Positions 35,132-35,559 of a stretch of DNA of 56,695 bases are shown piece after piece. Where the stretch lies: the NCBI GenBank assembly GCA_021851895.1, contig JAJZQJ010000002.1, positions 69,046 through 125,740 on the forward strand, written 5' to 3'. Every line of letters starts with the position of its first letter. The stretch's first letter is position 1. Source of the DNA: a bacterium. GTDB taxonomy: Bacteria; Patescibacteriota; Minisyncoccia; Phycocordibacterales; UBA6899. The notes beneath the pieces are model-generated. The model was not told the origin of the DNA and searched no databases. It saw nothing but the letters and a program-made list of their open reading frames with translations. The translations under genes were made by a program, and so were the position numbers.

Positions 35132-35203
35132 GGCCCTATCGTCTAACGGTTAGGACGGAGGCTTCTCAAGCCTTAAATCAGAGTTCGATTCTCTGTAGGG
35201 TCA
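35132..35203 (+). tRNA. tRNA-Glu (anticodon CTC), no encoded CCA
   Basis: Acceptor ggcccta/tagggtc; anticodon loop ttCTCaa; T-arm cagagttcgattctctg. Confidence 0.92.
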
Positions 35204-35267
35204 CAACTTGAAAAACGTCCGAGCAAAGCTCGGGCGTTTTTCTATGTTGTGAATCCCTACAGAGAAT
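35190..35267. repeat. tRNA-3'-end palindromic repeat, copy 1 (78 bp)
   Basis: tctctgtagggtcacaac..gaaaaacgtccgagcaaagctcgggcgtttttctatgttgtgaatccctacagagaat. Confidence 0.9.
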
Positions 35268-35419
35268 CGAACGAAGAGGGGTCGGGAGAGGGACACCTCT
35301 CCCGCGGAGGAGAGCAGGAACTCTTTGCGCGCAAAGGGTTCCGTTGAGGACCGTCGGTCCTCAAGGAGTTCGGCCGTGCGAGGCTCCTCTGGAGTGCACG
35401 AACCGAACGACGTGAGATG

Positions 35420-35497
35420 TCTCTGTAGGGTCACAACACGAAAAACGTCCGAGCAAAGCCCGGGCGTTTTTCTATGTTGTGAATCCCTACAGAGAAT
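35420..35497. repeat. tRNA-3'-end palindromic repeat, copy 2 (78 bp; 3 differences from copy 1)
   Basis: tctctgtagggtcacaacacgaaaaacgtccgagcaaagcccgggcgtttttctatgttgtgaatccctacagagaat. Confidence 0.9.
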
Positions 35498-35559
35498 TGA
35501 CATCATAGAATAAATATGTCATTGTGACTTTAGAGATCACACCACAACAAGGAGGCATT

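Follow-up and report, generated by a model that had tools for sequence, protein, structure and literature searches.

Across the order to which it belongs, and in other lineages of the phylum, the palindromic repeat followed up here from a single tRNA-Glu gene is one member of a family of short, structured units that lie at gene ends in a constant order: the gene end (E), a terminator hairpin (T), an inverted copy of the gene end (rcE), a structured core (X) and a direct copy of the gene end (E'). We regard it as practically certain that this family is real and widespread, and that it is undescribed in the open-access full-text literature that we searched, where we found no description of these elements. 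As to what the units are, we lean, with confidence only a little better than even, towards a gene-less integrative hairpin element of ~150-250 bp that would move as a unit and import a gene end.

The unit at the tRNA-Glu gene

The window (the whole stretch of 56,695 nucleotides analysed) comes from a genome of the Paceibacteria/Parcubacteria type (Patescibacteria), and its sole tRNA gene, for tRNA-Glu(CTC), is the host of the unit laid out in Table 1. The segment 35190-35270 is repeated directly at 35420-35500, at a spacing of 230 and with 77 of 81 positions identical; three of the four differences fall inside the 78-bp unit that an earlier note on this DNA had seen recur 230 bp downstream with three differences. 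The inverted tRNA end that it had also claimed is there, 35255-35272 pairing with 35183-35200 perfectly over 18 nt. The copy starts within the T-loop (GTTCGATTC..., 35183) and is therefore longer than the 22 nt quoted at the time. All the hairpins named in the note were found, and they fold as stated. As DNA, the 236 nt from 35187 to 35422 fold at -78.5 kcal/mol, compared with -36.5 +/- 3.3 kcal/mol for dinucleotide shuffles (z = -12.9). The second inverted copy, which has no core after it, is the remnant of an earlier unit, and similar remnants are present at other loci.

Table 1. Parts of the unit at the tRNA-Glu(CTC) gene, in window positions
Feature	Position	Strand	Basis
Host gene, tRNA-Glu (CTC)	35132..35204	+	ARAGORN; Rfam RF00005, 62 bits
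E, gene end, from the T-loop (TTCGATTC...) via the acceptor 3' strand to CAAC	35184..35207	+	inverted copy at 35246-35272, direct copy at 35420-35437
T, terminator hairpin of an A-tract perfectly paired with a T-tract, at the apex of the E/rcE palindrome	35211..35241	+	sequence; DNA fold
rcE, inverted E, ending at the T-loop boundary (GAATCGAAC)	35246..35272	-	18-nt perfect inverted repeat
X, type A structured core	35273..35422	+	R2 match 35278-35422, 140 bits
Core hairpin 1 (CGGGAGAGG-GACA-CCTCTCCCG)	35283..35304	+	A3 helix 1, both-side changes in 4/8 pairs
Core hairpin 2 (GGAACTCTTTG/CAAAGGGTTCC), most variable stem	35317..35342	+	A3 helix 2, both-side changes in 9/11 pairs
Core hairpin 3 (TTGAGGACC-GTC-GGTCCTCAA)	35344..35364	+	A3 helix 3, both-side changes in 4/9 pairs
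Core hairpin 4, distal two-part stem-loop	35368..35409	+	A3 helices 4-5; DNA fold
E', direct copy of the tRNA 3' end past the core	35420..35437	+	repeat search
T', second terminator hairpin	35441..35471	+	direct repeat D1
rcE', second inverted copy, no core after it	35476..35500	-	direct repeat D1

Distribution and core classes

Four genomes were compared at their tRNA genes: that of the window (G000; 1.10 Mb, 99.7% complete, with its tRNA and element stretches read), that of a sister species of the same genus (G001), and two from other families of the order (G045 and G012). Searching G000 with the window locus returned 18 matches, and with a second copy 19. When an inverted copy was required to match at 13 or more of 14 positions and to lie within 300 nt of the tRNA, an inverted 3' end was found downstream of 30 of the 42 testable tRNAs in G000, 30 of 41 in G001, 14 of 33 in G045 and 7 of 33 in G012. 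Direct copies of the tRNA end numbered 14 (of 42), 11, 11 and 4 in the same genomes, and shuffled flanks yielded 0 inverted and 0 direct copies in all four. The earlier note had named absence from relatives, or misassembly, as what would count against it; the unit is instead widespread in the order, and an assembly artefact is unlikely because the identical layout recurs in many independent genomes. Several contigs of the window's assembly terminate within copies of the element, and the units of 150-250 bp hold no credible ORF.

Some tRNA loci carry other features. Repeats of another type are found at tRNA-Ile GAT (L030), where a direct copy of the tRNA end is accompanied by hairpins, and at tRNA-Arg CCT (L003/L009), where tandem repeats of ~100 bp occur. 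Many genomes (L097, L099, L204, L210, L227 and others) have a second small hairpin, its loop reading CTGC (e.g. AAGCAAACTGCTTTGCTT), inside rcE, between the acceptor and T-arm parts. The terminators of Val, Gly and Leu tRNAs at L025, L026 and L070 belong to families common to different tRNAs (AAAATGACCACC...GGTGGTTTCATTTTG), their pairing preserved by compensatory changes between the sister species.

The core of the window belongs to what we call class A (type A cores). Sixteen copies give 37 consensus pairs, 19 of them with compensatory changes, and a covariation of 0.400, compared with 0.196 +/- 0.012 for shuffled and at most 0.147 for slid alignments. The class A model R2 matches in 54 of 118 genomes, sampled mostly from the window's order, with 23 matches in G000 and 22 in its sister. 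At L053, L016, L012 and L141, in the window's own and the sister genome, type A cores hold an insertion of ~115 nt with hairpins of its own (GGTGAGCTCTCGCTCATGGG...AAAAGGTGTACNGNTCNTGTAA), near-identical copies of which coincide with contig ends.

Class B folds as a three-way junction whose closing stem is made by rcE and E', with one hairpin carrying a G[GC]A/GA internal loop and a second a bulged A. Its covariation is 0.284, against 0.105 +/- 0.006 shuffled and at most 0.053 slid; since the sequences of alignment A1 were chosen by their closing stem, it is the core alignment A2 alone that counts as independent evidence. A2 was itself built mainly from exact matches to the distal-stem pattern, with the first helix used to set the left end; selection thus accounts in part for the distal stem being invariant and for the first, three-pair helix being paired, while the second helix and the covarying pair at the variable positions of the distal stem are free of it. 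Class B was found in 40 of 380 genomes across the phylum (10 candidates scored per genome) and, within the named genome collection, in 112 stretches or more, the labels being nearly all Yonath-, Kaiser-, Nomura-, Campbell-, Zambryski- or related Parcubacteria. Among 84 exact matches in the named genomes, 65 follow a tRNA or tmRNA gene at a distance of 67-296 nt, with identical orientation throughout, and the tRNA sites span 18 amino-acid families as well as tmRNA. One type B unit stands beside a tRNA on a 3495-bp contig labelled Cytophagales (L208), which is probably mis-binned Patescibacteria. The type B pattern had no match in the viral contig collection, and a viral vehicle was set aside on that ground.

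Other genomes hold additional core classes in the same layout. In G012, for example, a further class (GAACCGAAGGTCC... or GAACCGCGGGCC...GAGAGGYG) occurs in the order E-hairpin-rcE-X-E' at L329, L342, L374, L376 and L379. Rfam at gathering score recovered only the tRNA in the window; at a relaxed threshold six loci gave nothing convincing other than tRNAs, and no intron family matched. Readings as a group I or group II intron, RNase P or a ribozyme were dropped, no model having matched.

Core turnover, an empty site and protein-gene ends

The core at a given tRNA gene changes between closely related genomes. At Arg(GCG), Gly(CCC) and Ala(CGC) one sister species has a class B core and the other a class A core, and at 22 of 28 loci the core is closer to one found elsewhere in its own genome, at a different tRNA, than to the orthologous core in the sister species, a count that rests on similarity scores, the automatic A/B labels having contained errors and so being left unused. 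The tRNA-Thr(GGT) gene is filled in G000 and empty in the sister. There, what lies right of X aligns with the empty site at a score of 14.5 (best of 200 shuffles, 3.5), and the stretch separating E from rcE fails to match it (-6.0, with shuffles up to 7.0). As the right flank alone matches, the native flank is the right one and the added part is E-T-rcE-X.

Copies of classes A and B are also found at the ends of protein genes, both 5' and 3', some of them antisense to a gene start. The 3'-end sites are those of a H+-pyrophosphatase (hppA, twice) and of ribosomal protein L7/L12 (rplL); the 5'-end sites are those of a MurD-like protein, a family-4 glycosyltransferase and a heavy-metal-associated (HMA) protein. 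Pfam confirmed five of these identities. Copies are carried as well by the ends of two genes which, from reading their translations, we take to be topA and rpsI. Protein genes that read through E stay open. At hppA, the murD-like gene and rplL, 31 of the codon differences between E and E' are synonymous and 6 non-synonymous, as fits two lineages that have long been functional and hence not a fresh duplication with a decaying copy; at the glycosyltransferase, the HMA gene and L408 the differences are few, 6 synonymous versus 8 non-synonymous in all. By these comparisons E and E' at protein genes are diverged homologues, E looking imported rather than duplicated in place, and a simple target-site duplication was discarded for this reason. 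The inverted copy is closer to E than to E' at 6 of 8 protein-gene sites, with the reverse at one and a tie at one, so that E, hairpin and rcE seem to travel as a group. At both hppA sites the first ~40-47 nt of E and E' show no or hardly any differences, which is not what a pure crossover at the insertion point would predict.

Candidate mechanism, rival readings and known systems

Of the three guesses made in the earlier note, that of a tiny tRNA-targeting mobile element has fared best, core turnover and the empty site both speaking for it; what it missed is that the inverted copy is regular in every unit and that protein-gene ends are occupied as well. In the model that we propose, the unit would be E-hairpin-rcE-X, that is, a copy of the target gene end, a local hairpin (at tRNA genes, the terminator), the inverted copy and the conserved structured core. 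As a single strand it would fold into one long hairpin, with E/rcE as the stem, the terminator at the apex and X at the foot. Insertion would occur at a C|purine site, most often in a tRNA T-loop, and would give gene|E-hairpin-rcE-X|E', in which the incoming E completes the gene and the native E' is displaced behind X. The unit would move in one piece, probably as a circle, where the junction of X with E would create rcE-X-E with a perfect closing stem, and the cut would fall at the foot of X. Template switching at hairpins, a known process that homogenises their arms (PMC8794818, PMC7202029), may keep the stems perfect, and X variants may spread between loci via conversion or re-insertion. 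Because X variants are common to several tRNAs and rcE is always local, an extra process, such as conversion or fold-back copying, is needed. A tyrosine recombinase (PF00589) is encoded by exactly one gene in each of G000, G001 and G045; this single Xer-type enzyme, encoded in G000 at C1:5626-6147, is no more than a candidate, and it is possible that a recombinase is supplied in trans by another element. We saw no circle, excised form or enzyme.

This could also come about with no mobile unit at all. A broken strand might fold at a local hairpin and copy back to the break, making rcE, with X either captured or pre-existing; the units would then record repeated repair at tRNA terminators, possibly with DNA from other lineages. 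The one boundary common to rcE and E' would follow directly, as would an apex formed by a short hairpin (AAAC-GCTA-GTTT at L394) or by a stop-codon region (AATTTGAA-GTAA-TTCAAATT at L413) and the way E and E' agree at hppA close to the insertion point, and template switching is known both to make and to keep hairpins (PMC8794818, PMC7202029). Moreover, the finding of several unrelated-looking cores in one layout could mean that the layout stems from repair and not from X. We nevertheless judge the repair reading unlikely, since it leaves unexplained why two specific and strongly conserved cores are there in dozens of genomes and why, at the counted sites, they hold a single orientation to the tRNAs. 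Less likely again is a tRNA-linked structured RNA, in which transcribed X and rcE would act on the tRNA as a decoy, antisense or processing aid, and the pairing of E' with rcE would release it. A conserved three-way junction closed by rcE/E', covarying helices and an inverted copy that is kept oftener than the direct one (30 versus 14 of 42) are all in keeping with such a role. Against it, a terminator separates the tRNA from rcE and X, the core class at one tRNA switches between sister species, and protein genes carry copies at their ends too, some of which run antisense to the start of the gene; covariation can arise from template switching alone (PMC8794818) and is therefore no proof of RNA function.

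The enzymes encoded by element-bearing genomes bear on two further possibilities. X is a foldable single-strand substrate of the kind that a Y1/HUH transposase (RAYT or IS200/IS605 type) might mobilise as a REPIN-like miniature element, and Y1_Tnp genes are present in 40 of 60 relatives, with one in G000. However, G001 and G045, both rich in units, have no match to Y1 (PF01797) at E <= 0.001, and a search of 26 Y1-bearing stretches gave a type B core at just 3 loci; RAYT mobilisation is thus unsupported by gene presence and by neighbourhood, and we consider the Y1/HUH reading very improbable. The complementarity of rcE to the tRNA 3' end would suit a primer-binding site, as in a retroelement primed by that end, which would need a reverse transcriptase. 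RVT_1 genes (PF00078) occur in 24 of 60 relatives, but G000, G001 and G045, all element-rich, have no match; in addition, the palindrome runs past the tRNA into flanking DNA and the protein-gene copies have no tRNA. Mobilisation by reverse transcriptase is rejected for the window's genus and G045, and largely refuted unless the enzyme is viral, so that we give the retroelement hardly any credence.

Compared with known systems, our units would work most like a tRNA-targeting integrative element. Elements of this sort that use a tyrosine recombinase also insert inside the tRNA gene, often in the T-loop, the incoming 3' end restoring the gene and the native end remaining as a direct repeat; a restored gene end with a displaced native end was seen in the filled and empty tRNA-Thr(GGT) pair and at hppA, rplL and the murD-like gene. 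Unlike them, the units have no integrase or any other gene, measure 150-250 bp, carry the inverted target end and also use the 5' and 3' ends of protein genes. With integron attC sites they share, as a resemblance only, a compact imperfect hairpin that has a bulged base and, at the point of recombination, a variable terminal stem, whereas integrase platform, GTTRRRY core and cassette gene appear to be missing and the site is C|R in host genes; inspection of the unit boundaries by eye revealed no GTTRRRY box, and PF00589 matches lump IntI with Xer. Like REP, BIME and REPIN sequences with their RAYT, they are non-coding palindromes dispersed in one genome and potential single-strand substrates, but they lie at gene ends, have target-derived stems and lack a systematic RAYT association. 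In the RtT/tyrT repeats of E. coli, tandem repeats downstream of a tRNA each start with the last bases of that tRNA; to our knowledge these concern one enterobacterial locus and include no inverted copy, and RF00391 (RtT) had no match in the window or at six loci at a relaxed threshold. Fold-back or quasipalindrome template switching likewise uses one arm of a hairpin as the template for an inverted second arm and homogenises the two, yet supplies no conserved core of 100-150 nt. We do not class the units with retroelements, REP/RAYT or classical integrative elements, because one defining feature of each is missing.

Most tRNA genes of G000 and its sister have a unit at their end, and thus gene ends have been reshaped across a large radiation by elements that carry no genes. 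These two genomes, the ones studied in detail, are poor in the usual enzymes of mobile elements, with a single Xer-type recombinase and no reverse transcriptase. Were our model true, it would describe a new way for DNA to move and for gene ends to be exchanged between species. Its boldest form, about which we are doubtful, is that gene-less elements throughout the Patescibacteria act as folded single-strand DNA, employ a host recombinase, use a target-copied stem as guide and swap gene ends between species. In practice, contigs break within the units, and palindromes derived from the target could mislead annotation and searches for structured RNAs.

In G453 (L388, L396-L400) CACGGCCGTAAGGCCGTGG hairpins, and not gene-end copies, flank the type A cores; this may be a derived form that is targeted in another way. 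At L390 of G454 (around 1470-1660), a core of type A is bounded by TGACCCCACGGG and CCCCTGGGGTCA, both resembling the acceptor end of tRNA-Glu, and an intact tRNA-Glu gene is found ~1 kb away; this core is possibly a copy separated from its gene.
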